Of a stretch of DNA of 64,000 bases, positions 12,853 to 27,141 are shown one piece after another. Position numbers and translations under genes: made by a program. The DNA lies in contig LAPX01000003.1 in the NCBI GenBank assembly GCA_001858525.1, forward strand, positions 62,001 to 126,000, in the 5' to 3' direction. The stretch is from Vampirovibrio chlorellavorus (GTDB taxonomy: Bacteria; Cyanobacteriota; Vampirovibrionia; Vampirovibrionales; Vampirovibrionaceae). A model generated the notes under the pieces. The model was not told the DNA's origin, searched no databases, and saw only the letters and a list, made by a program, of their open reading frames with translations. Numbering within the stretch: position 1 is the stretch's first letter; every line of letters starts with the position of its first letter.

Positions 12853-14655
12853 ATGTCAAACATCAACCCCTCCAAGCTTCGTAACTTCTGTATCATTGCC
12901 CACATCGATCACGGTAAATCCACCATTGCCGACCGCCTGCTGGAATTTACCGGCACCATCGACAAGCGCAACATGAAGGATCAGGTGCTGGATAGTCTGG
13001 AACTGGAGCGGGAACGGGGCATTACCATCAAGCTGCAAGCGGCCCGTATGGATTACAAATACAAGGGCGAAGATTATGTGCTGAACCTGATCGACACGCC
13101 CGGGCACGTGGACTTCAGCTATGAAGTCTCTCGCTCGCTGCAAGCCTGTGAAGGGGCCTTGTTGGTGGTGGATGCTTCTCAAGGGGTGGAAGCGCAAACG
13201 CTTGCCAACGTGTATCTGGCCATTGAAGCCAATCTGGAAATCATTCCGGTACTGAACAAAATCGACTTACCCGGTGCCGATCCGGATCGGGTGCTTAAAG
13301 AAATTGAAGAAGTGGTGGGTATTGATACCTCCAACGCCATTATGTGCAGCGCCAAAGAAGGCATCGGTATTGAGGAAATTCTGCAAGCGGTGGTCGAGTT
13401 TGTACCGCCCCCAAAAATTGAAATGGAAAAACCACTCAGAGCACTGGTATTTGACAGCTACTTTGATGCCTACATGGGCATCATCACCTATGTTCGAATT
13501 ATCGACGGGGAAGTGAAGCAGGGCGATCGCATCCGCTTTATGGAAAACCAAAAAGTGTATGACGTGACGGAAGTGGGCGTGATGAAGCCGGTGCGTCATC
13601 CGCGGGCCAATCTGGTGTCCGGCGAGGTGGGCTATATTTCTGCTTCCATTAAGGAAATGGGCGCCTTTGTGGGTGATACCGTGACACTGCATGTTAACGG
13701 GGCCAAAGAACCCTTGCCGGGTTATCAGAAAGCCATGCCCATGGTCTTCTGTGGACTGTATCCGGTGAATAACGATGATTACACCGTCTTGAAAGATTCT
13801 CTGGAAAAGCTGAAACTAAATGATTCCAGTATTACCTTTGAGCCGGAAAGTTCCGAGGCCTTGGGCTTTGGCTACCGTTGCGGCTTCTTGGGCTTGCTTC
13901 ACATGGAAGTTATTCAGGAACGTCTGGAGCGGGAGTATAACCTGGATCTGATCACCACGGCTCCCAGCGTGGTCTACAAAGTGCACATGACCAACGGCGA
14001 TGTGATTGAGGTGGATAACCCCTCCAAGCTGCCCGATCCGGTTAAGCGGGAGTACATGGAAGAGCCCTTTGTGAAAATCAGCATCATTACCCCCAACGAG
14101 TTTGTGGGCGCGCTGATGGATCTGTCTCAAACCCGGCGCGGTATCTTTATCGGCATGGATTACCTGGATAAAGTTCGGGTGAATCTGCAATATGAATTGC
14201 CCTTGAACGAGATGGTGACTGATTATTACGACAAACTGAAATCCTGCTCTAAAGGCTATGCCTCCATGGATTACAGTTTTTCCGAATACAAGCGCAGTAA
14301 TCTGGTGAAGTTGGATATCTTGCTGGCGGGCGATATTGTGGATGCCCTCAGCGTGATTGTCCACCGGGACAAAGCGCATAGCGTGGGTCAGGTTTTGACT
14401 GAAAAACTGAAAGAAATTATTCCCCGGCAAATGTTTGAAGTGCCTATTCAGGCGGCTATCGGGGGCAAAATTGTGGCCCGTAGCACCGTAAAAGCCATGC
14501 GTAAAAACGTATTGGACAAGTGCTATGGTGGGGATATTTCCCGGAAGCGCAAATTGCTGGAAAAGCAGAAAAAAGGGAAAAAGCGCATGAAATCCATCGG
14601 CAGCGTGGAAGTCCCTCAAGAAGCGTTCATGGCTGTTTTGAAACTCAGCGACTAA
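12853..14655 (+). CDS. lepA: Elongation factor 4 (LepA)
   Basis: A 600-residue translational GTPase that acts on ribosomes during initiation or stalled elongation. G1 [10 protein letters not shown]3 DTPGHVDF and G4 NKID are in place. Domain II ([17 protein letters not shown]), the LepA-type PSVVYKV and the lysine-rich C-terminus ([20 protein letters not shown]) distinguish it from EF-G. The ATG at 12853 starts the conserved N-terminus ([20 protein letters not shown]); the longer frame begins inside proS. Length matches the family. Confidence 0.96.
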
Positions 14656-14663
14656 GATTTCCA

Positions 14664-14728
14664 AGGGGGCTTTGCCCCTGTAACCCCCACTGGAAGGGGG
14701 ACAGAGTCCAGCGCTTGCGCTGTCCCCC
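14664..14728. repeat. GC-rich palindromic intergenic repeat
   Basis: Just after lepA lie two hairpins in tandem: AGGGGGC / GCCCCT around TTT (14664-14679), and a larger one with outer arms GGGGGACAG (14696-14704) and CTGTCCCCC (14720-14728) enclosing AGCGC/GCGCT. The run-on of C and G blocks resembles REP or MITE-type palindromic units. It may also act as a terminator for lepA. Only one copy is seen in this window. Confidence 0.6.
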
Positions 14729-14847
14729 CTCCAGACCTCCCCGAGTAACTTGATGTTTTGCTGGTAAAGTTTTAGATTGCTATTCCTTTAATGTATCTAT
14801 CATCTCTGTTATTTTGTATGAATATAGTCGTTTAGGTTAGACATAGA

Positions 14848-15141
14848 ATGCCTACTAAGGAAGAAATTTCTCACGAAATTCATCAAGCAGCTCTCCGTTA
14901 TCAACAAGACAAACTTCGTATTGCCAGAGAAGAGTTGGAAAGTGCAAGTGCAGAAGGTCGTGAAGTAAATCCAATGCTTACTTTTGGCATAGTTCCTCAT
15001 AATCTCGGGGTAGAGAATCACGAAGTCCTTAATCAGTTTTTTAAAACAACGATTCGACCTGAAATATCACTTTTGAGGGAAGCTATTTCGGATGCAGTTG
15101 CCGAAATTGTTATTAAATATAGTATTAATGAGCGTGACTAG
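14848..15141 (+). CDS. Small AT-rich gene of unknown function
   Basis: A 97-residue, mostly helical, soluble protein (KEEISHEIHQAALRYQQDKLRIAREELE). I do not recognise it. It is visibly AT-richer in both codons and flanks (14.75-15.3 kb) than the surrounding genes, which suggests recent acquisition. It sits at the edge of the phage structural block but points the other way. No strong Shine-Dalgarno sequence is evident upstream of the ATG. Confidence 0.5.
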   Translation: MPTKEEISHEIHQAALRYQQDKLRIAREELESASAEGREVNPMLTFGIVPHNLGVENHEVLNQFFKTTIRPEISLLREAISDAVAEIVIKYSINERD

Positions 15142-15291
15142 AGTATCGAATTCTTCATCTACGTGTTGGCTTTTTACTTCACTCATAATTTCTTACTAGT
15201 AACCTCTATTCTTAATACTTATTCTCATTTTGGCCTTTGGAGTGTGCTTATAGTCCTTAAACTCAGATCAAACAATTATGGATTTTCAAAT

Positions 15292-15331
15292 AAAAAAGCC
15301 CACCTGTGCCGAGAGAAACGACACAGATGGG
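15292..15331 (-). terminator. Rho-independent terminator of the phage block
   Basis: On the minus strand a stem of 9 matches in 10 (CCCATCTGTG / CACAGGTGGG) is followed by six T. It sits 12 bases beyond the last gene of the phage block and should end its transcript. Confidence 0.75.
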
Positions 15332-15342
15332 AGGGTGGGGAT

Positions 15343-15597
15343 TTAATGGGTGGTCAGTGCTCTAACTTTTCCCAGAAACAATTGCCCGGCTTGGATGGCG
15401 TCTAAAAACTCATCTTCAGTGGCCGGACCATCGGGAAATTTCCAGGGGGCGGGCAGTTGGGCATAGACCCTCCGGGCCACCTCCAAGCCACTTAGGCGCC
15501 CCGCCAAGGGCGCCAATAAATGGAGTATTTTTAAAGCCAATGCCAGCTCCTTGCCCAAGCTGAGATTGGCCAGTAGGTGCAATGCTTTTTTCAGCAT
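15343..15597 (-). CDS. Small helical phage-block protein
   Basis: 84 residues, last gene of the phage structural block. The ATG at 15597 has AAAGGA seven bases upstream; an upstream in-frame start would run into the endolysin gene. The first 40 residues are hydrophobic and amphipathic (LKKALHLLANLSLGKELALALKILHLLAPLAG), which could touch the membrane; the rest is soluble. A role in lysis is possible from its position beside the endolysin, but no family is recognised. Confidence 0.55.
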   Translation of the reverse strand: MLKKALHLLANLSLGKELALALKILHLLAPLAGRLSGLEVARRVYAQLPAPWKFPDGPATEDEFLDAIQAGQLFLGKVRALTTH

Positions 15598-15626
15598 GAT
15601 GAATCCTTTCTGAAATGAATTTGGGA

Positions 15627-16001
15627 TCACGACCAGCGAGCCTGTGCGGGGCGAATGTCCAGATGTGTGTAGTGCTGATAACAGCCCATGCCGCCAGACC
15701 AGTGTTTTAAAAACGCCTGCACCGCAGGGGCGGGCATGCCACTGACCACAATGTCCGCGGCCATGCCATTGAGGTGCTGACTTTGGGATGCCCCGCCCAC
15801 GGCCTGATTGTGGGCCTTGCTGCGATAACCGGAATTGATAATGATCGGCTTGCCCAGCAAATCACGAAGGACTTGCAAGCGATTGGCCAGTCGGTAAATA
15901 TTGTCCAGAATCCATGGGGCGGGAATGGGATCATCGCCGTGCAAAAATTCGGACAATTTGAAGTTTGAGGTGAGCTGAATAGCCCGTGGATCTTGACTCA
16001 T
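15627..16001 (-). CDS. M15-type peptidase, probable endolysin
   Basis: A 124-residue single-domain peptidase of the zinc D-Ala-D-Ala/L-Ala-D-Glu family. The family pattern is clear: IIINSGYRSKAHNQAVGGA, then SQSQHLNGMAADIVV with the first zinc His and Asp, and HYTHLDIRPAQARW near the end with the last zinc His. It has no signal peptide, so it would need a holin to reach the wall. Size and position, after the tail fibre and holin-like genes, fit a phage endolysin. AGGA precedes the ATG. Confidence 0.82.
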   Translation of the reverse strand: MSQDPRAIQLTSNFKLSEFLHGDDPIPAPWILDNIYRLANRLQVLRDLLGKPIIINSGYRSKAHNQAVGGASQSQHLNGMAADIVVSGMPAPAVQAFLKHWSGGMGCYQHYTHLDIRPAQARWS

Positions 16002-16054
16002 GGCAGTCCTGCTTTCATGGTGTGCTGGTTTTATTTTTTGCTTTATTCCCCGTT

Positions 16055-16315
16055 TTATTCTTCGGGAGTGCGTTGATGATTGAGGCGATCGTTGATTTTG
16101 TTCAACTGCAAATCCAGCTTGTTCAGCAGGAGCTTGATGTCCTCCACATCCTGACGGGTGGCATATTCGGCCCGAATGGAGTTTTCCAGTTGCCGCAGCG
16201 ATTGCTCCAATTCCACCGGGGTGACAAAAATGCCCAGCTTCAACAAGCTCACCGTCACAAAAGAAATCAGCGCCGGAACCACATACTGCCGGGCTTGTGC
16301 GAACAGTTCCATCAC
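16055..16315 (-). CDS. Holin- or spanin-like single-pass membrane protein
   Basis: 86 residues: one membrane helix (about 11-32, VVPALISFVTVSLLKLGIFV) followed by a long charged coiled coil (VELEQSLRQLENSI, EDIKLLLNKLDLQLNKINDRL). The frame opens at GTG with ATG as second codon, and it overlaps the stop of the preceding gene by four bases, implying translational coupling. Position beside the endolysin suggests a holin or spanin component. There is no sequence signature to prove it. Confidence 0.6.
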   Translation of the reverse strand: MMELFAQARQYVVPALISFVTVSLLKLGIFVTPVELEQSLRQLENSIRAEYATRQDVEDIKLLLNKLDLQLNKINDRLNHQRTPEE

Positions 16316-16668
16316 TCCCCCGGGGGTGGTGGGGCGGATTCCGGTAACAGGCTGAGCAAGGCTTGGCGCAGATCTTCCAACGTTTCCGGGATTGTGGCCC
16401 GTTGAATGATCAGGCGGGCTATGTGCGGCCGGTTTTGCTCCAGCTCCATTTTGACGGCCGCTTTTAATGGGGCCAAATCGGCCTGCACCTCAGCGGGAAG
16501 TTCTCCCTCAAAGGCTTGTCTTAAGCGCTCGGTGATGGGCTGGATCTCAACGCTGTTTGCGGGTGGCATCCCGGGTTGCCAAGTGCCCTCTTCCCGTGCT
16601 CCCGGCTGTTGAGGATAATCACCGGCATCGCTGATGGTGCCGTCGTGTCGCAGTAAATAAAAGTTCAT
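16312..16668 (-). CDS. Phage-block protein downstream of the fibre
   Basis: 118 residues, acidic, with a short N-terminal beta region (MNFYLLRHDGTISDAGDYP) and helical remainder, ending in a Pro-rich tail. It lies two bases after the fibre gene and overlaps the holin-like gene by four bases. The N-terminus resembles small proteins encoded after tail fibres, some of which assist fibre assembly. That role is inferred from position only. Confidence 0.6.
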   Translation of the reverse strand: MNFYLLRHDGTISDAGDYPQQPGAREEGTWQPGMPPANSVEIQPITERLRQAFEGELPAEVQADLAPLKAAVKMELEQNRPHIARLIIQRATIPETLEDLRQALLSLLPESAPPPPGE

Positions 16669-16670
16669 GC

Positions 16671-17828
16671 TTAGGTCACCTCGGTTACAATGTAGCCCGC
16701 CACGTTGATGTCCATCCCGCTGGTGGTGTCGGTCATGCGGTACTGAATAATCTGGCTGGCATCGGTTTCTACAATTTCGGCTTCGTATTCGGTGCTGGTT
16801 CGACCGGTCAGGTTTTGCACCACAAACTCATCGATGCTGCTGCCTTTTTTCCGAATATAGCCGAACTTGCCACTGGCGGAAATTTGATAGACACCGCCGC
16901 GCAAAATGGCCTGTGTGGAAATGGGCGGTACAAAATTCGCCAGGGACACATCGGTGTAAGTGCTGGCGGTGCCGCCATCCAGCACAATGGGCTGCCCGGT
17001 GGCCGGGGTCTGGTTGATGGGCAAAATGCTGACCCGATACTTAATAGAAGGGCGATAGGGCCAACCGGTGGAAATATAAAACGGCACGATATTGCTACTG
17101 GCATCGGTGCGAATGGCCAATGGCAGTTGTCTTTTTGTATCGTATCCGGTGGGGATGGTAATACTGCCCCCACTGACTTCATTGGCCGTGGAAAACACAG
17201 CGCCGGTGGTGCCGTCTACACTGCGTTTTACCAGATACACGTAGTACCAGGTACTGGCCGCTTTGGTGCCGGTATCCAAGCCATTCAGGCCGCTACTGTC
17301 TAGGCTTAAAGTGATATCGGCGGCCAATTCAATGTCGGTTTGATTGGTAGAGTTACGGGCCCGCAATCCGCTTTTCAGCTTGATGGCGCTGCTGGTATCG
17401 TAGAGCGGCGCTACCCCGGTAATGCCGTGTTTGTACAACACCGGGTTGCCCTCATGAACGAGGTACTTTGATGCGCTATTCACTCTTAATCGATATATGT
17501 GATTGGTGGAATCGTAGCCGATTTCCCCGTTGGTGCTGCATAAAAATCCGGGCGTTTGGGCCAACCGAACCGATCCGTCTTTGAGCAAGACTGTTTCGAT
17601 ACTCACCCCGGCATCGGTGGTGCGTTCTTCCAGGGTGTCCGCTTTGATGGCGGCGGAAAAACTCTTGGTGCCGGTAATAGTCATAGTGCCCGATTCCAGG
17701 CTGGTTAGCCGGGTGTCCTGACTGTTGGATTCGGTGACCAGCTGATTGAATTCGCTATCCAGATCATCGGCGTTGATTAAGTTTCCGTTGGCGATTTCCG
17801 CTTGTTTGAGCCGTGAGATTTGAGTCAT
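16671..17828 (-). CDS. Probable phage tail fibre / receptor-binding protein
   Basis: 385 residues. The N-terminus is helical (ISRLKQAEIANGNLINADDLDSEFNQLV, then SQDTRLTSLESG), as in the virion-attachment end of many fibres. The rest is rich in Ser, Thr, Gly and Asn with beta-strand character and no enzymatic motif. It sits between the tail protein and the lysis genes, the usual place for a fibre in podovirus-like genomes. AAGGAG lies well placed before the ATG. The fibre call is structural and positional. Confidence 0.65.
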   Translation of the reverse strand: MTQISRLKQAEIANGNLINADDLDSEFNQLVTESNSQDTRLTSLESGTMTITGTKSFSAAIKADTLEERTTDAGVSIETVLLKDGSVRLAQTPGFLCSTNGEIGYDSTNHIYRLRVNSASKYLVHEGNPVLYKHGITGVAPLYDTSSAIKLKSGLRARNSTNQTDIELAADITLSLDSSGLNGLDTGTKAASTWYYVYLVKRSVDGTTGAVFSTANEVSGGSITIPTGYDTKRQLPLAIRTDASSNIVPFYISTGWPYRPSIKYRVSILPINQTPATGQPIVLDGGTASTYTDVSLANFVPPISTQAILRGGVYQISASGKFGYIRKKGSSIDEFVVQNLTGRTSTEYEAEIVETDASQIIQYRMTDTTSGMDINVAGYIVTEVT

Positions 17829-17860
17829 GGCATTTACTCCTTGGTACTTATCTGGGTTAC

Positions 17861-19399
17861 TTATCGGGTGCCGCCGTCTACGATGGTTATGGTCCAGCCT
17901 TCAATTTCCACCGGGCGATCCGCTTCGTTTCCAGTGAGCTCCATTTGGAAGTATTGCCCGGAACCTGCCGGTATTAGGCTGAAGCAAGCGCTGCCCGCCC
18001 GGTTGTAATAGTCGGCCCCGTAGGTGGCCTGATTGTAAGTGGTGCTGGCACTATCGGGGATTAGGGATACTGTCCGGGACTGCTGATTCTGAGAGCCTCT
18101 TCGAAGGTTCCAGTACATTTTCACCGTGACATTGACTTCCGAAATTTGCTTGAGATAGAGCTGAATATCCTTGATCCGTTTGCGGAGACGAGGCGTTTCA
18201 AAATCCAGAAATCCGGTACGGTAAATCCAGGGAATGGGCTGCCCGTTGTAGCTGTTGCCTTTGAGTTGTTGCTGTACAATGCCTTGGTAATTCCCGGTAA
18301 ACAGTTTGCCGTTGAACGTGCAGCCGCAGGCGGCGATAACGCCTTGCCGCTTGCTCCAGATCCGGTTGATGCCGTAGTTGTATACCAGTACGGTTTGATT
18401 TTGAATGGCGCTGCCATCGGCCACAAACCACCACACTTCCTGTCTGTTTCGCAGATGAACGGCAAAACTTTGGCTGAGCTGTGCCCGGTTGAGATTTTCA
18501 ATCTGGGCCTTGATGGCATTGGATAGAAACAGGGTCGTGACGTTGCCTTGGGCCGTGGCCGTGGATAAAGCGGTCACACCTTCCTGCGATAGAAACATCA
18601 ATTCATTACCCACCAGCACTATGCTACGATGGCTAACGGCCCCAAATTCATCCGACATTTTTTGAACGGCAAAGGTGTCTACATCGGTGCCGGATAGAAC
18701 ATAGGTGGAGCGCTCCTTGAAGATCACCAGCACCTCTTCATTGAGGAGGGGCAAGAACAGGGTTTTCAGACCGGTAATTTTTTCACCGTCACCAGGAGAA
18801 ATTTGCACTGCACCCGGAGAGTCTGACCAGTAATCGGGATCAAAATTTTCGGCGTTTTCCAGTTCCGAAATGTAGACCATAGAGGGGTTATCCGAGTCTC
18901 CGGAGAAGATCAGCCGGTTGGCATAAATTTCCGAAAAAGCAGGTTTGCCGGGATCAATGCCATACACAGCCGGTGGCCAATTTTCCAGAAGTTCAACGGC
19001 ACCAATGCCGTCCCATTTAATGGGGCTGTCCGCACCATTGCAACCAATTAGCAACCCCTGAAAGGTCACAAAATTCATGGTTCGGTTGGGGGTTAAACTG
19101 CTGTACAGGAGTGTGGCTGCACCGGTGCTTTCATTGAATTGGTAGAGTTTATCTCCGGATACGGCAATTAAAAACGTTTGTCCCAATAGATTTTTATAGG
19201 GGTATAAACTGGTGACTGTTGCCCCGGATGCCAGCGGCGTGCTGTTGATATTGACATAACCGGCGTTATTGCTGGACCAGCTGCCGTGGGTGGTGGCGTG
19301 TAAATTAACGATTTCTTCGGCCTCGCCATTTTTTAAGGTTAGGTCGTTGGCTCGTAAATTCATGCCCCCGGCGTTATCGAAAAATTGAAATGTACGCAT
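17861..19399 (-). CDS. Phage tail nozzle / DNA-stabilisation protein, P22 gp10-like
   Basis: 512 residues with repeated beta-propeller-like blades: YKNLLGQTFLIAVSGDKLYQF, FQGLLIGCNGADSPIKWDG, EVLVIFKERSTYVLSGTD and VLVYNYGINRIWSKRQGV. Size, blade pattern and place directly after the head-tail adaptor match the P22 gp10 / T7 gp12 class of tail proteins that close the portal channel. AAGGAAG precedes the ATG. The class is likely, the exact family less certain. Confidence 0.65.
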   Translation of the reverse strand: MRTFQFFDNAGGMNLRANDLTLKNGEAEEIVNLHATTHGSWSSNNAGYVNINSTPLASGATVTSLYPYKNLLGQTFLIAVSGDKLYQFNESTGAATLLYSSLTPNRTMNFVTFQGLLIGCNGADSPIKWDGIGAVELLENWPPAVYGIDPGKPAFSEIYANRLIFSGDSDNPSMVYISELENAENFDPDYWSDSPGAVQISPGDGEKITGLKTLFLPLLNEEVLVIFKERSTYVLSGTDVDTFAVQKMSDEFGAVSHRSIVLVGNELMFLSQEGVTALSTATAQGNVTTLFLSNAIKAQIENLNRAQLSQSFAVHLRNRQEVWWFVADGSAIQNQTVLVYNYGINRIWSKRQGVIAACGCTFNGKLFTGNYQGIVQQQLKGNSYNGQPIPWIYRTGFLDFETPRLRKRIKDIQLYLKQISEVNVTVKMYWNLRRGSQNQQSRTVSLIPDSASTTYNQATYGADYYNRAGSACFSLIPAGSGQYFQMELTGNEADRPVEIEGWTITIVDGGTR

Positions 19400-19463
19400 T
19401 CGTTAATGCTTCCTTTGAGCCGTTTTAAGCAGGCGCTTTTGAGTGTTTGCTGTCAGCACACTT

Positions 19464-20108
19464 TCAAATCGTTCGTCCACCCCGATAAAACCCTTTCATA
19501 CGGTATTCGGGCTTCCGGGGGGCCAGGCTTTTTAGCTGGGCCAAGCCGTCCCGATAGAGTAAGAAGGTGTCGCTGCCCCCTTCGCCTAGAAATTTTTCAA
19601 GACGCGCCTGAGTGCCGAGTATCAGAACTTTTTCCCAGCTTTCGGGCAAGGCCGTGGTGTCGCTATTCAGGCTGAGTTTTTGCGGACTGCGCTGGTAATC
19701 GTAGCGAATGGTGTAGATAGCATTGGGCACCGGATAGAGAAACAACTGGCTTCCTTTGCGATAAAAATACTGTGGCTTGCCACTGAGCGTTTCTCCATGG
19801 GCAATCGGGTAGGTGTAATCCACTTCTTCAAGACGTAATTGGCTGCCTGTTTCCTGCACGGAATCGGCGATTAAATCCTGCACCTCACATTGGGTGGTCA
19901 GGCTATAAGCCGCCGTTCCTGAGCTGGTGTTAAAGGTGGCCGATTGTTGCAGCCGATTGACCTGTAAACGCTGCAGCATTTCCGTGTAGGTTTCATTGAG
20001 AAAATCCACGGTCTGAATAATTGGGGTTTGGGCCTCGTTTAGGGTGCTGGCTTCCACTTGGCCGGTGCGCCTGAGGATCTCATTCACCAGTTGCAGGAGT
20101 GTGCTCAT
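19464..20108 (-). CDS. Phage head-tail adaptor protein
   Basis: 214 residues. N-terminal helices (LLQLVNEILRRTGQVE; QTVDFLNETYTEMLQRLQVNRL) are followed by a beta region (SSGTAAYSLTTQCEVQDLIADSV; FYRKGSQLFLYPVPNAIYTIRYDYQ) and a C-terminal helix. This helix-beta-helix order is that of the podovirus adaptor (T7 gp11 / P22 gp4 / gp6-like). It overlaps the preceding small gene by 29 bases and has AAAGGAG before its ATG. It would sit between the portal and the tail nozzle. Confidence 0.7.
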   Translation of the reverse strand: MSTLLQLVNEILRRTGQVEASTLNEAQTPIIQTVDFLNETYTEMLQRLQVNRLQQSATFNTSSGTAAYSLTTQCEVQDLIADSVQETGSQLRLEEVDYTYPIAHGETLSGKPQYFYRKGSQLFLYPVPNAIYTIRYDYQRSPQKLSLNSDTTALPESWEKVLILGTQARLEKFLGEGGSDTFLLYRDGLAQLKSLAPRKPEYRMKGFYRGGRTI

Positions 20109-20301
20109 CCGACGCTCCTTTCAGTTTAAGCAGTTTCAGCCGATAGTCGGCAGGGTATTGTTTTAGAATCTGGGCCAAAGTCCCCTGAATACGAGTTTTG
20201 AACTTGGTGTTTCTGTTTTCACAAAGCCAGATGGCTTGCTCTGAATAAATATCGGGAGGCGTTGAAGTGTCTTGGACTTCATCGTCAAACGGTAAATCCA
20301 T
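20080..20301 (-). CDS. Small phage-block protein
   Basis: 73 residues, acidic N-terminus (MDLPFDDEVQD), basic middle (ENRNTKFKTRIQGTLAQILKQYPADYRLKLLKLKG). The ATG at 20301 has AAGGAG six bases upstream. It lies between the coat protein terminator and the adaptor gene, overlapping the latter by 29 bases, and is probably translated with it. No family is recognised. Confidence 0.6.
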   Translation of the reverse strand: MDLPFDDEVQDTSTPPDIYSEQAIWLCENRNTKFKTRIQGTLAQILKQYPADYRLKLLKLKGASDEHTPATGE

Positions 20302-20338
20302 CACGATCTCCTTTGAATGTGGCACATAGGATTTGGGT

Positions 20339-20377
20339 AAAAAAAGGAGCGATGACCATCATGACGGCCATCGCTCC
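20339..20377 (-). terminator. Terminator downstream of the coat protein gene
   Basis: On the minus strand a perfect nine-base-pair stem (GGAGCGATG / CATCGCTCC) is followed by seven T. It lies about 54 bases after the coat protein stop. Confidence 0.8.
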
Positions 20378-20430
20378 GGTGGAGTTGCGTTAGAGAGACA
20401 GTGGGAGAGAAAAGGAAAGGGAGATACTGC

Positions 20431-21264
20431 TTAAGCCGAGGCTTTCAGCACAGCGCCCGCATTGGGCATCATGACCTTGGAGCCATACAGGTACAGCCCT
20501 TTAACCGCATCGGCAAACATGTTGTACGGACGAACCGTTTCAATTTTGTTGACCTGGCTGGCAAAGCTGATGAAATCCTGGGTGAAGGCCAGCAAATTAA
20601 CCACGCTGCCAACCGCAGGATTGTTGGTGGTGACGTGTACTCCAAAGCCTGCCACGTTGCCGATGTAGCCGTTTTGGATGACGTTGTCTCCCAGACTGGT
20701 GGCCCGGGTAAATTCGGTGGATTGCAAGAGCAGGGTTTTGAATTTGGGGGTGATGACCAGGTTGCGGCCTTCCTGGGGCGCATTGCTGTTGTCCAGTTTT
20801 TCGGCCAACTGGGTGATATAGCCGTAAATGTTGGCACTGGTCAGGGTGATGGGTGCGCCATCCGTGCCGATGACGTTGCCCGCATCCACATCGGTATAGT
20901 GGCCAATCAGGCGGGAGTCTACCACGTCCCGAATGGCGATGGCTGCCCGGCCCGCGTAGCCTTCCAGAATGTCCACGTTGGCTTGGGCTTTATCCAGGTC
21001 ATCGACTTTGAAGGCAAAGTATTTTTGCTGATCGATCAATAAATCCACCATGGGATCGGTGAGACTTTGGAAGGAAATGGTCATATCGCGGGTGTAGTTG
21101 TTGACGGTGACATCGCCAAAGGTGCGCACGTGAACTACGTCACCGGCACTGGTGATTTCACCTTCAAAATCACGGTTGACCAGATTGGCCATGACCACGG
21201 TTTTGTTAAAAATTTTGAGTAATTTTTTGCTCCAGATTTCTGGAATGAAGTTTGCGGTTGCCAT
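20431..21264 (-). CDS. Phage major capsid (coat) protein
   Basis: 277 residues. The N-terminus (FIPEIWSKKLLKIFNKTVV; NRDFEGEITSAGDVVHVRTFGDVTVNNY) and the later ITPKFKTLLLQSTEFTRA and GFGVHVTTNN are typical of HK97-fold coat proteins of the P22 gp5-like group. It follows the scaffold gene, as expected for podovirus-like assembly. AAAGGA lies before the ATG. The gene is bracketed by two terminators (20339-20377 and 21303-21332), which would set its expression apart from its neighbours. Confidence 0.82.
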   Translation of the reverse strand: MATANFIPEIWSKKLLKIFNKTVVMANLVNRDFEGEITSAGDVVHVRTFGDVTVNNYTRDMTISFQSLTDPMVDLLIDQQKYFAFKVDDLDKAQANVDILEGYAGRAAIAIRDVVDSRLIGHYTDVDAGNVIGTDGAPITLTSANIYGYITQLAEKLDNSNAPQEGRNLVITPKFKTLLLQSTEFTRATSLGDNVIQNGYIGNVAGFGVHVTTNNPAVGSVVNLLAFTQDFISFASQVNKIETVRPYNMFADAVKGLYLYGSKVMMPNAGAVLKASA

Positions 21265-21302
21265 TGTATCGGGTCCTTTCTGGTTGATAAAAACGGGGCA
21301 TT

Positions 21303-21332
21303 AAAAAAGCCGCAGGATTAAATGATTGCGGC
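21303..21332 (-). terminator. Terminator between scaffold and coat protein genes
   Basis: On the minus strand GCCGCA / TGCGGC form a six-base-pair stem with a 12-base loop followed by six T. It lies only 38 bases before the coat protein start, so any promoter specific to the coat gene would have to overlap it; otherwise it works as a partial terminator. Confidence 0.6.
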
Positions 21333-21363
21333 ATTCGGGACTGTTTTTAGCGGGGGTTTGTCA

Positions 21364-22011
21364 TTACTGCACTCGGTTATTTTTGAGTGCGTCATTGATG
21401 GCCGCTTCGTTTTTGAGGAATTCAGGCAGGCTCATTTGGGCAATTTGCTGCCGAGAGAAACGAGGCGGTTCCGTGGGTGTTTGGCGCTTGGTGGCCGTTT
21501 CCATGTAAGGGTTTTTGTCGGGGCTGATCGTGCTTTTTTCTGAATCGGAGGCATTCAGTTTTTCTTTGAGGGTGTCCTGAAATTTTTGAGAGAAGATGGC
21601 CAAGCCCTTTTCTAACAGGGTTTCCCATTGATCGATTCCGCCATCTGGATCTTCGCGCAACAGGGTCACCACTTCTTGCAGAATGAACGGTTCAAAACGG
21701 GCAAATTCCGGTGACTTTTTTCGGAAACTGTTTAGCGCACTTTTCAATTCAGCTTCTTCTTTCAGGTCGGCCAGATGGGTTTTTGCGGCATCTTCCACAA
21801 TCTGTTGAACGAAAGAAAACGGATCGCTGACAAACAGCTCCAATGCTTGATTGGGCGGAAGCGATTCAATAGAGGGAGGAGTTAGATTGGCTGAAATGGA
21901 TGGGTTTTGAGGGGCAGTTGCTGGCCGGTTCATTGGCTTTGGCGAGTCCAGAGCTTCCTGGGATGAGGCTTGGGGTGTCGCTTGTGAACCCGACGATGAT
22001 GATTGAGACAT
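21364..22011 (-). CDS. Probable phage scaffolding protein
   Basis: 215 residues, placed between portal and coat protein genes, the usual site for a scaffold. The first 55 residues are a Ser/Pro/Gln/Ala-rich disordered region; then a helical acidic core (FVQQIVEDAAKTHLADLKEEAELKSALNSFRKK) and a charged C-terminus. Low complexity, helicity and position are what identify podovirus scaffolds, which rarely share sequence. AAGGAG lies upstream of the ATG. Confidence 0.65.
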   Translation of the reverse strand: MSQSSSSGSQATPQASSQEALDSPKPMNRPATAPQNPSISANLTPPSIESLPPNQALELFVSDPFSFVQQIVEDAAKTHLADLKEEAELKSALNSFRKKSPEFARFEPFILQEVVTLLREDPDGGIDQWETLLEKGLAIFSQKFQDTLKEKLNASDSEKSTISPDKNPYMETATKRQTPTEPPRFSRQQIAQMSLPEFLKNEAAINDALKNNRVQ

Positions 22012-22053
22012 GACTTCTCCTTGTATGAATGGATTGAGGGTGCGTGGGAGGGG

Positions 22054-22311
22054 TTAGTCCGTATCCGGTTGTTTTCGAGACCACTCCCGCTCGGCCTGTT
22101 GAATAATCAACAGCGGTGTGGAAAAAATTTCCTGAATCACTTGGGCGCGGATGGCCTCATACAGAAAGGCCTCTTTGGCATCGGTGTCCGTAACGCGGGT
22201 GCGCAGTTCCGGCCGAAAACTACTTTGCAGCAGATCCCAACCGGGTTCCCGAATCAGATCCGTGAACAGGGTGGCTTTTTCACGCAGGCTGAGCTGCTTG
22301 TAGAGGGTCAT
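22054..22311 (-). CDS. Small phage-block protein after the portal
   Basis: 85 residues, helical and charged (LREKATLFTDLIREPGWDLLQSSF; AFLYEAIRAQVIQEIFSTP). Its ATG overlaps the portal stop by four bases (ATGA), so it is translationally coupled to the portal. GGAG lies inside the end of the portal gene. No family is recognised; a virion or assembly role is implied only by the location. Confidence 0.65.
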   Translation of the reverse strand: MTLYKQLSLREKATLFTDLIREPGWDLLQSSFRPELRTRVTDTDAKEAFLYEAIRAQVIQEIFSTPLLIIQQAEREWSRKQPDTD

Positions 22312-24059
22312 GCGGAGGCTCCGTTTTCTACTTCAGGGGTGCTGATGAAAATATCGGCTTCGTCGGTAAAACCCAGACGCCGATACACTTTTTTGTACAG
22401 ACTGAGCCAGTCCACTCGATTGCGCAGAGCGGGGCTGTTTTCCACCAGTCGTAGAAACGAGGTGATAGCGTTCAGCTCTTGTGCTTTGTTCCATGAGCCT
22501 CGTGAACCATCAATGCGGAACTGACAGTGACAGGTTTGCACTACTTCCGGTCGCAGGGTTTTAAACAGGATTTGACCGCCGGGCTGACACACTCGCAGCT
22601 GCTCTGGCTGGTTGAGAAACTGTCGGGCATTTTCCAGCACCATTCTCAGGAACGGCTCCAAAGAGGTGTGCTCCAGGTGGGCCAGGCAGGAGGAGAATTT
22701 TTGGGTTCCGCCTTGCACCAAAGCGCTCACTTCGGTTGCAGTCCGGGATTGTCCCTGCTCATTGCCGGTGAAGTATTTCAGGGCGCCCGTGGCTTCCTGA
22801 GCCTCTGCTTTGAGATCGGCGATTTCGGTAAAGGCCACCGTGAAATTATTCAGGTACTGAATGGGCCTGAGCGTGTCGTGGCTTTTCACTGGAATGAGCG
22901 CACCGGGCCGGGTCACCACCGCCTCGGGATCAAACACGTCATCGTTGATGAGATAGGTAAAGGGGTTGTTGATGGACAGGTTGATTACGTCCAGTTTTTG
23001 ATTGGTCAGGGTGTTGATGGCGTGTTGCAGACCCAAAGATTTTTCAATGGCCCCAATGCCGTAAATTTCGTTGGGTACGGGAATGAAGTTGGTAAAAATA
23101 AACGGCTTCATACCCGAATCATAGGGGTTGGGCTCAAAGCGAATGACCGTATCGCCATTGGCCACCACGCAAACATAGTTTTGGTAAAGTGTGTCGCCCA
23201 CTGTAAAATCGCCCCACGCTTCCAGCAGGGTGATTTTTGGGGACGTCTGTTCATCCGGTGTTTGCGGATTATCGGCGAGTCCGAAGGCTCGGCGTTTGCT
23301 TTGCTTGTTGCTGTCTTCACTAGAAAGACGATGGGGGTTTTTCGGGTTGAGTGTTTCCAGATTGCAGTAAGCCGGATTATTTTTCAGGCTCAGCCAATCT
23401 CGATCCACTTTGCGGATGACGTTGGCTCGCTCAAAATCCGGGGCATCGGGATCGATGAAGAATTCGAACATGTCCAGCGTTTCAAAGTCCGGGCCATGGT
23501 AGGTCACTTCTTCCCGGCTGACTTTTTGACTGCCCACCGTCACCCCAAACAAGGTGACCGGTTGCTGCACTTGTCGGCTTTGGATGGATTTTCGCCAGGG
23601 AACGGCCGCCACCGTGTTACCGGTGATAATGGCCTGTTTCAGGAAGAGGGCGTACTTTTCAATGAAGCTGGCATCTTCCAGTTTATTACGCAAAAATTCC
23701 TCAATCAGGCTGGCCTGACTGTGGTTTTCTTCCGTTTTGCCAATGACCGAAAAAAATCGTTCGTTGGCTGGAAACAAGGCATTCAGCAGATTCGAGTGAA
23801 TGGCTTCCACCGCTTCGTATAAAACTGGACGAACCACTTGGCTGCGATCGTGTGGGTGGTTTTCCGCTTCCGCATAAAGAGAAGGCGTGTCGCACAGGTA
23901 GGCCTCCCAACATTCTCGCCATTTTCGCTCTAGGCCGCTTCTGGATTGTTTCCAGTGTAGGTATTGGTTGTAAACCGTGCGGGCCAGCGCTTGCTGGTTT
24001 TCTTCCGTTAATAGGTGCAGTGCTGGTGTTGTGGCCGATGTGGCCATTGGATCAGACAT
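22308..24059 (-). CDS. Phage portal (head-tail connector) protein
   Basis: 583 residues, the size of podovirus portals. It would form the dodecameric DNA channel at one capsid vertex. Supporting segments: RSQVVRPVLYEAVEAIHSNLL near the N-terminus, FEFFIDPDAPDFERANVIRK, the YGIGAIEKSLGLQHAINTLT helix region, and EATGALKYFTGNEQGQSRTA near 430-450. These match the order seen in head-tail connector proteins of podoviruses. GGAGGG precedes the ATG. It leads the recognisable virion genes of the block; no terminase gene lies on either side. Confidence 0.85.
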   Translation of the reverse strand: MSDPMATSATTPALHLLTEENQQALARTVYNQYLHWKQSRSGLERKWRECWEAYLCDTPSLYAEAENHPHDRSQVVRPVLYEAVEAIHSNLLNALFPANERFFSVIGKTEENHSQASLIEEFLRNKLEDASFIEKYALFLKQAIITGNTVAAVPWRKSIQSRQVQQPVTLFGVTVGSQKVSREEVTYHGPDFETLDMFEFFIDPDAPDFERANVIRKVDRDWLSLKNNPAYCNLETLNPKNPHRLSSEDSNKQSKRRAFGLADNPQTPDEQTSPKITLLEAWGDFTVGDTLYQNYVCVVANGDTVIRFEPNPYDSGMKPFIFTNFIPVPNEIYGIGAIEKSLGLQHAINTLTNQKLDVINLSINNPFTYLINDDVFDPEAVVTRPGALIPVKSHDTLRPIQYLNNFTVAFTEIADLKAEAQEATGALKYFTGNEQGQSRTATEVSALVQGGTQKFSSCLAHLEHTSLEPFLRMVLENARQFLNQPEQLRVCQPGGQILFKTLRPEVVQTCHCQFRIDGSRGSWNKAQELNAITSFLRLVENSPALRNRVDWLSLYKKVYRRLGFTDEADIFISTPEVENGASA

Positions 24060-24422
24060 AAGTTCCCTCCGTATTTGATGAATCAGGATTTATTAATCTG
24101 GGCGCTACAAAACGCACCCGTAAAAGCTTGCTTGGCGAGTGAAAATATTGGGTCAGAGAAAACAAAAGAGGGAGGCGCGAAACTACGAACGGGGAATGAA
24201 TCGATCCGCCAGAGGAGCGAACGAATAAGCGCTATACATAGCGTCGCTTCACACGGTTGGCATTCCTGTTTCAGGGGCGAAAGAACGCCTGAAAACAGAA
24301 AGCCACCAACCCCGTGAGCACCCAGTCAATACAGCCCGTGCAAGGTGGTTGATGATCATTATTATGCGCTGCGGTTTGGCATTGTCCCAGCGAAGGAGAT
24401 TTACGATTTTTTGAGCGCCGAC
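24060..24422. other. Structured intergenic region within the phage block
   Basis: 363 bases without a credible gene. It holds a short palindrome CGCTA-TACA-TAGCG (24230-24243) and a nested structure: outer arms CACGG/CCGTG with TTGG/CCAA (24252-24316) around an inner imperfect hairpin, CTGTTTCAGGGGC (24266-24278) with GCCTGAAAACAG (24287-24298). It could be a leader, a small RNA or a packaging-type site upstream of the portal. Its function is not known. Confidence 0.45.
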
Positions 24423-25142
24423 TTATAAGTCCAGTTTATCCAGCTTGATTTTCATATCCCGATTACCCAGTGCCACGGTTTCATCTTTTTTCGGGGGCGG
24501 TTTGGATTCATTTCCAGATTCGGATTCGACTGCAGGGGATTTTGCTTTTTCTGCTTCTCCAAGGCTTTGCCGCCAAGTGGCCAATTCTTCGGCGTACGCC
24601 TTGGCCTTGCTTTGATTGAGCTGGTTACGGATGGCCTGCATGGTTGGCCCATTAGGCAAGGTCATGGAAGGGTAAAAGGTACTTAAGTGGGCGACGGTGT
24701 TTTTAAAATTGCCAGCCACAAAACTATCGGTTATGCCCTGCATAATGGCGTTATCGACGGGTTGGTTGGTGTGTTGGCAAATGGCAAAATATTCCATTAA
24801 ATGATCCACCACTGTGATCACGTGTGTGGCGATCAGGGTGCGTTGCGTTTCAGGCAACACGTACAAGCAGTTCATAGCGTGGTGCAGGCTTTCGACTTTG
24901 TCATAGCTGCGGGCCTTGCTTTTGGCTTTGAACAAACTGAGTACTTTTTCTGGTGGCAAGGTTCTGGGATTTTTTAAAAACTGGCTCACCTGGCAATGTT
25001 TTTCGGCCAACCTTGACAGGGTCTCTCCGATCAGGGGTTCGTGGCTTAATGGAAAACTTTCCATTAAATTGACACTGAGGGCCACATTTTCTTCTTTTTC
25101 ATACCAACGCGTTTTCGATGGATTGCCTTTATTTGTTTCCAT
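24423..25142 (-). CDS. First gene of the phage block, function unknown
   Basis: 239 residues, soluble and helical. There are two short Cys/His-containing stretches (EKHCQVSQFL; HHAMNCLYVLPETQRTLIATHVITVVDHLMEYFAICQHTN) and a disordered Lys/Pro/Glu-rich tail. It lacks the ATPase or nuclease motifs of a large terminase and I see no clear helix-turn-helix of a small one. It precedes the portal in the same direction across the structured 363-base gap. Whether it belongs to the phage block or to the host is open. Confidence 0.55.
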   Translation of the reverse strand: METNKGNPSKTRWYEKEENVALSVNLMESFPLSHEPLIGETLSRLAEKHCQVSQFLKNPRTLPPEKVLSLFKAKSKARSYDKVESLHHAMNCLYVLPETQRTLIATHVITVVDHLMEYFAICQHTNQPVDNAIMQGITDSFVAGNFKNTVAHLSTFYPSMTLPNGPTMQAIRNQLNQSKAKAYAEELATWRQSLGEAEKAKSPAVESESGNESKPPPKKDETVALGNRDMKIKLDKLDL

Positions 25143-25248
25143 TTAGAACTTATGCCTAAAGCTAGTACATGATGTCTATAGTACCTAATTTCCGCATTTT
25201 TAATTTTATAATCAATTCTGGTAACTATATTAACAAATTTTAAGGAAT

Positions 25249-27141
25249 CTATTTTTCGAGGTGGTAGCGAACCGTGGTTACTACCTTGTTACTGCGGTAA
25301 CGCAACAGCGCTTTGATCATGATGGAGGTTTGGTTGTGTAGTAAATTGTGCCACCAGCTTTTGGTCACAAACTCTGGCACAATAATGGTCACCAAATCAT
25401 GCTCATAGCGCTCTTCAACCTCGTCAATATATTCCAACAGCGGTTCGCTGATGGAACGATACGGAGATTTTAGAATAGTCAGCGGAATGCCACAACCCCA
25501 GGCTTCCCAAGCTTTTTTCAGGCGCTCTGTGGCGGCGGGGTTTAACTCCACATGCACGGCTTCAACCCGGTCGGAGATTGTTTTTGCGTATTCCAGCGCC
25601 GGGATGGTCCCCCGGTGCAGGGAAGATACCAGAACCAGTACGGTGTGCTCAATGGCCGTTGGACAATAGCCGCTGTCGGGTAAGGCCAGTTGCTTGCCAA
25701 TGGACTCATAATGGTGCAGCACTTTGCGGAAAATGAAGATGACAACCGGCATGGCCACCAACACAATCCATGCCCCTTCGCTGAATTTCTCAAAGGCCAG
25801 GATAATGGTCACAACGCCTGTGGCCACAGCACCGATGGTATTCACCAGTGCTTTTCGCTGCCAACCGGGCCGCTGCTCTGCTTTGTGATGGCCAATCATG
25901 CCCCACTGGGCTAGTGTGAAGGACAGGAATACCCCAATGGCGTAGAGTGGCATCATTTTGTTGTAGTCGGCATCATAGGCAATAATCAGCAGAATGGCCA
26001 AAACGCTTAAAATGACAATGCCGTTGCTGTAGACCAGCCGATCTCCCAGGTTCATCAGCTGTCTGGGCAAATAGCCGTCCTGGGCCAGAATCATACCCAG
26101 CCGGGGAAAGCCATTAAAGCTGGTGTTGGCGGCCAAAATCAGGATAAGGGCTGTAATAAACTGCACGATGAGATAAAACAGGCTGCCGTGAGTGAATACG
26201 CTGGCCGCAATCTGGGAAATGAGCGTTTCGTGATGGGGGTCCAGCTCCGGTGGAACAATACCCGGCAAGGCATAGGCCAAATAGGTCACCCCTAAGAAGA
26301 TGGTGGCCAGCACCAAGCCCATGTAAACCATGGTGCGGCTGGCATTCAGCTCAGCGGGTTCCTTGAATGCCTGTACGCCGTTGGAAACGGCTTCAATCCC
26401 GGTTAAGGCGGCACAACCGTGAGAAAAAGCCTGCAGCAGTGCGGCGATTAAGACCAGTGGCGCTACGGTGCTAATTTGTTGACCCACCACGCCGATTTCC
26501 GGGACGGACTCAATCTGTCCGGTCATAACTTTGTAGATACCGGTTCCGATCAGGGCCACCATGGAGAAGATAAAAAAGAAGGCCGGAATGGCGAAGGCCT
26601 TACCGGATTCCTTCACCCCGCGCAGGTTGAGCAACATGATGATGGCAATCATGATGATGCTGAGCGCGATATTGTGGCCTTTGGGCAGCCATCCGGTGGA
26701 GACAATGTTGGCCACCCCGGAGGAGATACTAACGGACACCGTCAGCACGTAATCAATCAGCAAGGCAGCCCCGGCGATTTGACTGGCGGTTCTCCCCAGT
26801 CGGCTTTTGGCAACTTCGTAGCTGCCGCCACCCATGGGATAGGCGTAAATGACTTCTCGATAGGACATCACCACAATAAACATCAGCAAAATGATGATGG
26901 CGGCAATGGGGATGGCCAGTAGGCCGTTGAATGCGGATTGCTGGATCAGGCTTAAGCCCATTTGGACGGTGAGTCCTGCCGCAAACAGCGCGATGACAAT
27001 TTCCTCGGTGGCATATGCGGTTGATGACAAGGCATCAGAGGCAAAAACAGCCAACCCAATGGGAATGGACAAACGCTCATGGCGTTCACGGTGGGAAGCC
27101 AGAGGGTCTCCCACAACAAATCGTTTTAACCTGCTCCACAT
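25249..27141 (-). CDS. KimA/YdaO-like APC-superfamily potassium transporter
   Basis: 630 residues with about 12 membrane helices followed by a soluble C-terminal domain of about 150 residues. The N-terminal motif FASDALSSTAYATEEI and MGGGSYEVAKSRLG are typical of the KimA group, high-affinity K+/H+ symporters in the amino-acid/polyamine/organocation superfamily. The C-terminal part (EHTVLVLVSSLHRGTIPALEYAKTISDRVEAVHVEL) resembles the universal-stress-like domain of KimA, which in Firmicutes is linked to c-di-AMP control. No c-di-AMP riboswitch is recognisable upstream. An amino-acid permease role cannot be excluded. Confidence 0.8.
   Translation of the reverse strand: MWSRLKRFVVGDPLASHRERHERLSIPIGLAVFASDALSSTAYATEEIVIALFAAGLTVQMGLSLIQQSAFNGLLAIPIAAIIILLMFIVVMSYREVIYAYPMGGGSYEVAKSRLGRTASQIAGAALLIDYVLTVSVSISSGVANIVSTGWLPKGHNIALSIIMIAIIMLLNLRGVKESGKAFAIPAFFFIFSMVALIGTGIYKVMTGQIESVPEIGVVGQQISTVAPLVLIAALLQAFSHGCAALTGIEAVSNGVQAFKEPAELNASRTMVYMGLVLATIFLGVTYLAYALPGIVPPELDPHHETLISQIAASVFTHGSLFYLIVQFITALILILAANTSFNGFPRLGMILAQDGYLPRQLMNLGDRLVYSNGIVILSVLAILLIIAYDADYNKMMPLYAIGVFLSFTLAQWGMIGHHKAEQRPGWQRKALVNTIGAVATGVVTIILAFEKFSEGAWIVLVAMPVVIFIFRKVLHHYESIGKQLALPDSGYCPTAIEHTVLVLVSSLHRGTIPALEYAKTISDRVEAVHVELNPAATERLKKAWEAWGCGIPLTILKSPYRSISEPLLEYIDEVEERYEHDLVTIIVPEFVTKSWWHNLLHNQTSIMIKALLRYRSNKVVTTVRYHLEK

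Follow-up and report, generated by a model that had tools for sequence, protein, structure and literature searches.

A 64,000-nucleotide stretch of the Vampirovibrio chlorellavorus genome (GenBank assembly GCA_001858525.1, contig LAPX01000003.1, forward-strand positions 62,001 to 126,000; we call the whole stretch the window) carries 12 genes of short-tailed-phage type in one operon on the minus strand, at positions 15343-24059. We consider it likely that this block houses the structural genes of a gene transfer agent (GTA)-like element, or viriform, of the Vampirovibrio lineage that is vertically inherited, divided among several loci, and co-regulated. This reading is based on the gene content, the open frames, the split loci, co-occurrence across genomes, vertical descent, purifying selection, and a promoter-like sequence. 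The original prediction, made from the sequence of the window, had proposed a GTA-like or domesticated particle whose terminase is encoded elsewhere, and this proposal was supported wherever it could be tested. The window's genome (3.03 Mb) is G000 in what follows, and the genomes it was compared with, several of which are fragmentary, are numbered from G001.

All 12 frames are open, and the genes lie on a single strand in podovirus-type order, as originally described. The first gene (22308-24059) encodes a portal protein of 583 amino acids (aa; phrog_332, E=7e-57; the Pfam family SU10_portal, E=2.3e-35). Its stop is overlapped by a gene for an 85-aa conserved protein (22054-22311), followed by a putative scaffold of 215 aa (21364-22011) whose position is conserved in relatives; neither has a significant family match. 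Next come the major coat (capsid) protein (20431-21264, 277 aa; phrog_267, E=3.2e-58), a 73-aa conserved protein (20080-20301), the head-tail adaptor (19464-20108, 214 aa; SU10_adaptor PF24175, E=7.6e-20), and a nozzle-like protein (17861-19399, 512 aa), whose best PHROG, phrog_5107 (E=5e-33), carries the label amidase and which also matches phrog_3287, a virion structural protein family (E=2e-28). The last five genes encode a tail fibre-like protein (16671-17828, 385 aa; phrog_17105, of no assigned function, E=1.4e-8; phrog_19294, tail fibre, E=9e-4), a 118-aa protein (16312-16668), a holin-like protein (16055-16315, 86 aa), an M15 peptidase endolysin (15627-16001, 124 aa; PF08291, E=8e-24; phrog_894, E=9e-36), and a 95-aa conserved protein (15343-15630). 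The gene names given in the original prediction stand to different degrees. The portal, coat, adaptor, and endolysin have strong profile support, the nozzle-like protein has good support, and the fibre has weak support; no profile supports the scaffold or holin, which are putative names given by position and size. Shine-Dalgarno matches of at least 4 nucleotides (nt) precede 10 of the 12 genes, and intergenic gaps run from -29 to 129 nt. Among the 12 operon proteins, no PHROGs family for a terminase, integrase, repressor, or polymerase matched, which agrees with the original prediction.

A terminase is encoded at a second locus. The phrog_2 profile has a single match in G000: a large terminase (TerL) on another contig, at G000:C27:179538-181037 (the virion block is on contig C22). 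Terminase_6N (PF03237), which we also tried as a detector, missed this protein, which scored 12.5 bits and fell under the cut-off. Orthologues lie apart from the block in G004 (92%), G001 (68%), G007 (58%), G014 (55%), G005 (54%), and G008 (52%); pieces of TerL are found at contig ends in G002 (94%) and G003 (76%), and more distant orthologues (47-50%) in G011, G015, and G017. Within the family, 8 of 10 genomes have both a window-type coat (at least 74%) and this TerL (at least 52%), and the other two, G006 (78% complete) and G009 (93% complete), have neither. The number of element loci that we found is two in G000 (C22 and C27), three in G005, and four in G008. They are on different contigs in G000 and are 51 kb and ~780 kb apart in G005, which is a one-contig genome. 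In an alignment of the TerL proteins, a Walker A-like EKSRDMGxSW, a Walker B (DEF), and nuclease-type aspartates line up, which we take to be the motor and nuclease motifs; their retention argues for heads that would be filled with DNA.

A virion operon with no linked terminase could also point to a satellite of the PICI or P4 type that borrows the terminase of a helper phage, as the original prediction allowed. Satellites typically carry integrase, repressor, and replication genes rather than coat, portal, adaptor, and fibre genes. The block has the reverse: those four virion genes are present, and no integrase, repressor, or replication gene was found in it. Integrase domains have 10 matches in G000, none of them on C22 or C27. 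Also, the terminase is a vertically inherited chromosomal orthologue and not a helper's. We consider a satellite extremely unlikely.

The terL operon appears to include virion genes that stem from the same ancestral phage as the block. In G000, G004, G005, G007, and G008, genes for a 103-aa helical protein, a GNAT-like protein, and a 246-aa protein precede terL; in G001 the 103-aa gene is directly before terL, and in G003 no relative of the 246-aa protein was found. In five of seven genomes (G000, G004, G001, G003, and G007), a protein of 106-128 aa with paired CxxC motifs is encoded between the promoter box described below and the 103-aa gene. In G000 this is a 106-aa protein with which the operon opens (~6524-6841 of our stretch L092). 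The evidence for a common origin comes from two phage-like loci in the same family (G006:C101 and G009:C4), where a GNAT gene and a relative of the 246-aa gene follow the nozzle gene. By hhalign, the 246-aa protein matches the phage protein moderately in G006 (80% probability, E=1.3e-5) and weakly in G009 (40% probability, E=3e-4); the GNAT matches reach 96% probability, but this is a broad superfamily. These two loci are related to the window's (portal 32-33% and nozzle 30%) but differ from the element: the GNAT and 246-aa pair is after the nozzle and not before terL, neither locus matches the window's coat, and in G009:C4 TerL adjoins the portal gene. The 103-aa protein is a possible small terminase.

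As originally noted, the block is flanked by host genes on both sides. On one side is lepA (12853-14655, plus strand), with proS and ftsH beside it, and on the other is a kimA-like transporter gene (25249-27141, minus strand), with pgcA, tRNA-Arg, and hppA beside it. A portal homologue is present in 24 of the 58 genomes that we searched around G000, including all five members of the genus (66-93% identity in the other four, with no internal stops). The block is next to kimA in all five genus members and in the database record MW495066 (see below), so the conserved position that the original prediction asked about is there; both flanks are visible in G000, G004, and MW495066, and all 12 genes lie between kimA and lepA in G004 and MW495066. 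For G001 we found 10 of the 12 genes behind kimA, with additional ORFs separating the fibre and M15 genes, and lepA is ~1.4 kb past the last gene. The blocks of G002 and G003 run into contig ends on the side away from kimA. In G005, which belongs to another genus, a shorter block without fibre and M15 adjoins lepA. In G007 and G008 the block is at other chromosomal places, and in G007 it is on a different contig from lepA. Wherever the portal, coat, and nozzle genes are present at these places, they contain no stops.

The element's genes are under purifying selection like that on host genes. Between G000 and G004, the ratio of nonsynonymous to synonymous substitution rates (dN/dS) is 0.046 for the coat, 0.056 for the nozzle, 0.076 for the adaptor, 0.10 for the portal, and 0.11 for both TerL and the fibre; it is 0.05 for lepA and proS, 0.04 for kimA and hppA, and 0.10 for pgcA. 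Low values for portal and coat are what the original prediction had proposed to look for. dS itself ranges over 0.5-1.0 among these element genes and 0.5-0.8 among the flanking ones, and it is saturated at wider distances. We computed dN/dS on stop-to-stop ORFs, which inflates the ratio for small or overlapping genes (0.73 for the 86-aa gene, 0.36 for the 202-aa gene, 0.26 for M15, 0.24 for the 95-aa gene, and 0.20 for the scaffold), so we rely on the larger genes.

The genes are also vertically inherited and have diversified together with their hosts. Protein distances correlate with those of lepA (Pearson 0.93 for TerL across 35 pairs, 0.99 for the coat across 36, 0.90 for the portal across 45, and 0.88 for the nozzle across 36; Spearman 0.80-0.95). 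In approximately unbiased (AU) tests, the lepA topology was not rejected by TerL (p=0.144), portal (0.378), or nozzle (0.20), the coat tree has the same topology as lepA, and eight of eight random topologies were rejected for each of the four proteins. We limited these tests to eight taxa (seven for the coat) because the lepA tree is weak at deep nodes.

These results bear on whether the block is a truncated or decaying prophage, that is, a recent insertion that lost its terminase, its integrase, and its replication half by chance. The block does lack integrase and replication genes, and decaying relatives exist in the order. G003:C199 is a prophage-like relative with TerL beside the portal gene and the coat in two pieces; G005:C1:754-774 kb (at 758 kb) is another, again with TerL beside the portal gene, and here TerL is in two pieces. 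Eroded remnants are present in G011 and G013. The original prediction had named terminase-linked or frameshifted copies in relatives as signs of a truncated prophage, and such loci exist, but as extra copies: G003 and G005 both keep the intact block as well, and the two loci are separate prophage-like copies and examples of decay in these genomes. None of the 12 operon proteins belongs to an integration, replication, or packaging module, and the portal, coat, and nozzle genes contain no stops; the block keeps the same kimA-side slot in five genus members and MW495066, its dN/dS is as low as that of host genes at comparable dS, its trees are congruent with the host's, and the matching TerL is kept elsewhere under similar constraint. 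A plain recent truncation is therefore not supported, and we rate the prophage explanation as very unlikely.

The GTA-like reading is also backed by something that the original prediction did not foresee, which is a promoter box common to both loci. By comparing the leaders of the virion and terL operons, we found an 18-bp box, TCRTAAATNTNNTTCGCT (24389-24406, minus strand); since the pattern was derived from these sites, its presence there is expected, unlike its scarcity at other places and the fixed spacing described below. The copy in the window is perfect, and the only other perfect copy in G000 precedes the terL operon. G004 also has two perfect boxes, and all four are at virion and terL loci, as compared to ~0.01 perfect copies expected per genome (by simple arithmetic with equal base frequencies). 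G001 and G007 have one perfect box each, at the block, and a copy with two mismatches at terL, and G003 carries a one-mismatch box at each element locus and a perfect one at another place. In the window, a -10-like hexamer, CATAAT (24361-24366, minus strand), lies 22 nt after the box. A hexamer of this kind (CATAAT, CATACT, or similar) is found at exactly this spacing in 17 of 19 element promoters, which are not all independent (six come from the close group of G000, G004, G002, and MW495066), and at any other spacing from 8 to 35 in at most 7 of the 19. This geometry suggests an activator that would bind beside the -35 position.

In G005 and G008 the box is common, with 11 and 5 perfect copies. 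We inspected 20 of the 36 sites with at most one mismatch in these two genomes, excluding the block and terL sites; at a spacing of 22 nt, A and T are at hexamer positions 2 and 6 in 18 of the 20, and 13 have at least four matches to TATAAT. Some of the element's pieces that lie away from the block appear to keep the switch. Among the 20 sites, for example, is a box 87 nt before the G008 fibre gene, which is at a locus of its own, and a relative of the 118-aa gene follows the fibre gene there as it does in the window. Also among the 20, a box is 607 nt before the M15 gene of G008 and another 620 nt before that of G005, and both M15 genes are accompanied by a holin-family relative; no hexamer is present at the G008 M15 site, and further ORFs may intervene. 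Other genes behind boxes in G005 and G008 include GNAT, glycosyltransferase, ParA/TadZ-like, and S1 genes (by Pfam) and hisG-like and murC-like genes (by eye). One box in G005 precedes a gene with a Colicin M domain (L239:473-1039; PF14859, E=7e-18). Because this class of box precedes genes without a virion role, the regulator that would act at it probably belongs to the host and has a regulon extending beyond the element.

Downstream of the promoter is a conserved, hairpin-capable leader segment (24305-24353, minus strand). Its core, GCAC...GTATTGAYTGGGTGCTC, is almost invariant in seven sequences, and by eye the outer arms change in a complementary manner. In five sequences, folding was not significantly better than that of shuffled sequences (z of +0.20 to -1.77), so we do not claim a hairpin; a covariation table of four sequences has few double changes. 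An Rfam scan of 14600-25300 matched nothing.

Several observations weigh against the GTA-like reading. First, if up to two mismatches are allowed, the box is no more frequent than its reversed control in G000 (13 versus 15), G004 (7 versus 8), or G007 (24 versus 27), and in these genomes nothing but the perfect copies and the hexamer at its fixed spacing is conspicuous; the box does exceed the control in G005 (32 versus 13), G008 (37 versus 8), G001 (15 versus 9), and G003 (21 versus 14). Three of eight near-match sites in G000, G004, G001, and G003 likewise have A and T at the hexamer positions; given this and the genes without a virion role behind G005 and G008 boxes, the box may not be specific to the element. 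Second, phrog_2 is a broad family that has matches in 13 of 14 control genomes, so our case for TerL rests on orthology by blast. The tie between TerL and the virion block is genetic (co-occurrence and the box) rather than biochemical. The 103-aa protein is a tentative candidate for the small terminase; its AlphaFold model is all-helical (pLDDT, the predicted local distance difference test score, of 64; pTM, the predicted template modelling score, of 0.26). Third, the element has been partly lost in another family of the same order (our family f3): G011 retains TerL and portal, but neither the coat nor the nozzle matched there; in G013, of the same genus as G011 (contigs C78 and C212), the nozzle is split in two, a piece of the portal lies at the end of a contig, and neither TerL nor coat matched. 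Finally, we call the element GTA-like rather than a proven GTA; it is known here from its genes.

If the GTA-like reading is right, a short-tailed phage would have been captured by the family's ancestor or earlier and would have lost its replication and integration genes. Its remaining genes would have spread over the chromosome as the virion and lysis operon and, on what is now another contig, an operon for TerL, the 103-aa helical protein, the GNAT-like protein, the 246-aa phage-like protein, and the small cysteine-rich protein. A host regulator at the shared 18-bp box, 22 nt upstream of the hexamer, would switch both operons on together. The portal, scaffold, and coat proteins would assemble into proheads, and TerL from the other locus would fill these with DNA; because the two loci lie far apart, host DNA is the likely cargo. 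The adaptor, nozzle, and fibre would complete a short tail, the M15 endolysin and the holin-like protein would release the particles by lysis, and the packaged DNA would be delivered to kin. The regulator, particle production, packaging of host DNA, lysis, and delivery to kin are steps that we infer.

The same data would fit a domesticated DNA-packaging particle whose main purpose is not gene transfer among kin; it could be a weapon or a means of DNA delivery directed at competitors or prey, or could serve lysis. One paper describes V. chlorellavorus as preying obligately on Chlorella (PMC13157829), and the fibre is the least conserved operon gene of more than 300 aa (83% between G000 and G004 and 36% between G000 and G001). 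On the other hand, the motor and nuclease motifs of TerL favour DNA-filled heads, and profile searches found no toxin family among the operon genes, several of the small ones matching no family at all. We regard another main purpose as quite unlikely.

The GTA-like element that we propose has a close parallel in organisation. The precedent that comes closest is BhGTA (VSH-1) of Brachyspira (Brachygtaviriformidae), which, as described, also has a structural cluster without terL, has a single conserved terL elsewhere in the genome, and has co-diversified with its host (PMC9662315). This likeness is one of published gene organisation and not a comparison of sequences. A promoter box common to both loci, as in the element, is not mentioned for BhGTA in the parts of that article available to us (PMC9662315). 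The host of BhGTA belongs to a different phylum.

The GTA of Rhodobacter capsulatus (RcGTA, Rhodogtaviriformidae) has a siphovirus-like tail, and its TerL is encoded inside the main cluster. The element differs in that its genes are of short-tailed-phage type, with a portal ~30% identical to those of freshwater cyanopodoviruses. Like the element, RcGTA is vertically inherited and has its known genes scattered, in its case over five loci; its production is under cellular regulators (PMC9662315). Its host, too, belongs to another phylum. The definition of GTAs in the same source accepts sequence similarity for caudoviricete-derived proteins (PMC9662315). The element has three of the six features in that definition, including caudoviricete-derived particle proteins (by the homology part) and vertical inheritance with the host. 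A further feature is a head too small to take up the whole element, and what we observed on this point is the distance between the loci in G000 and G005; packaging of mostly random host DNA and its delivery to other cells are features that the element would have if our reading holds.

The cyanopodoviruses Pf-WMP3, PP, and A-4L are among the nearest named phages by portal after MW495066 (28-31% over 95-96%). These phages are free and encode terminase and replication proteins of their own. After MW495066, the coat is nearest to those of phiSASD1, AP45, and D6E (39-42%), and the N-terminal half of TerL is nearest to Acinetobacter phages such as Ab105-1phi (42% over 54%). A scan of IMG/VR with the portal protein alone, which reaches close relatives only, found nothing. 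In open full-text literature, searched by titles and the starts of abstracts, we found no paper that treats such an element as a GTA in Melainabacteria, Gastranaerophilales, Vampirovibrio, or cyanobacteria. A term search of the main text of a study of capsid-packaged DNA from the gut found no mention of Cyanobacteria, Melainabacteria, or Gastranaerophilales (PMC12946183).

MW495066 ("Microcystis phage PhiMa05/MaAM05", 273,876 bp) was deposited as a jumbo phage and carries the operon between kimA and lepA. Its proteins are 81-98% identical to those of the window (69% for the neighbouring 239-aa gene). This raises the possibility that the block is part of a jumbo prophage, as a 2026 paper describes Vampirovibrio with 274-kb PhiMa05-like prophages that supply ribosomal proteins and hold the only copies of uL1, uL11, bL21, and bL27 (PMC13157829). 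The accessible text of that paper has no occurrence of terminase or gene transfer agent (PMC13157829). The same block is in the same place in MW495066, with a portal 91% and a coat 95% identical. In the ~127 of 274 kb whose annotation we inspected, MW495066 holds genes that are typical of bacterial chromosomes: tRNA-Trp and then secE-nusG-rplK-rplA, rplU-rpmA, purL-purF, sufBCDS-iscU, ispD/G/H, as well as lepA, proS, ftsH, aspS, purB, and tRNAs. No TerL of this type matched in MW495066, and its authors, in the text available to us, reported no terminase and no integrase (PMC8093824). In G007 the contig with the block is not the one with lepA, and therefore the block and its neighbourhood are not one unit; the block and the flanking genes also have dS in the same range. 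Family profile searches of the operon proteins matched no tail-sheath or tape-measure family, yet the particles imaged for PhiMa05 had 108-nm heads and 127-nm tails (PMC8093824). With core-chromosome surroundings, the split in G007, and no TerL, a single mobile phage genome that spans the block and the 274 kb around it is hardly credible. The simpler reading is that MW495066 is a contig of a Vampirovibrio-type chromosome and not a phage genome. The DNA came from a filtered, CsCl-banded, and DNase-treated preparation (PMC8093824), and it could have entered either as small cells or as packaged DNA.

Next to the operon is a fast-evolving 239-aa gene (24423-25142, minus strand) with no significant family match. 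The original prediction had included it in the block, which was drawn as 15343-25142, and had noted tight spacing and strong Shine-Dalgarno sites throughout. We found this gene in all five genus members and in MW495066, always between kimA and the promoter box. No Shine-Dalgarno site precedes it, a gap of 363 nt separates it from the portal gene, and it is upstream of the box, so it is probably outside the operon transcript, and the operon part of the original block is what stands. The gene may be a regulator or may be unrelated.

In gut relatives (Gastranaerophilales, our family f6), a different compact cluster is present in all eight genomes that we compared (L165-L172). All eight clusters encode an amidase, nozzle, coat, scaffold-like protein, adaptor, small terminase (Terminase_2), portal, and TerL (Terminase_3), and seven of the eight have a LuxR-type helix-turn-helix gene, as seven do a GNAT gene; the proteins are ~40-92% identical to those of L165. 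Five genomes of one genus have upstream neighbours in common. Among the proteins of the L165 cluster that were scanned, we found no integrase or replication protein. The TerL of this cluster matches 184 of 382 genomes of the class, mostly with one copy each, and the coat matches 117 of 191 genomes of the family. This cluster may be a second GTA-like element. We think it doubtful that three things hold together: that the Vampirovibrio element is an independently domesticated short-tailed GTA run as a host regulon, that PhiMa05 DNA was carried in its particles, and that Gastranaerophilales has a second GTA-like cluster.

Overall, the published interpretation of PhiMa05 as a jumbo phage with ribosomal protein genes is due for re-examination, and a chromosomal origin for MW495066 would offer a simpler reading of the 2026 claim that a virus supplies a cell with essential ribosomal proteins. 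If PhiMa05 DNA did come from these particles, then a non-photosynthetic cyanobacterium's GTA-packaged DNA would already have been sequenced without being recognised. More generally, structural cassettes "without terminase" can be complete, and terL away from a structural operon, together with a shared promoter box, is a signature for which other genomes can be screened. As of 2022, the GTAs with an established genetic basis were placed in three groups that had been exapted independently, two from Alphaproteobacteria and one from spirochetes (PMC9662315). If our reading is true, the Vampirovibrio element would be a further independent origin of GTAs, from a short-tailed phage, in partly predatory bacteria of the Cyanobacteriota/Melainabacteria group.

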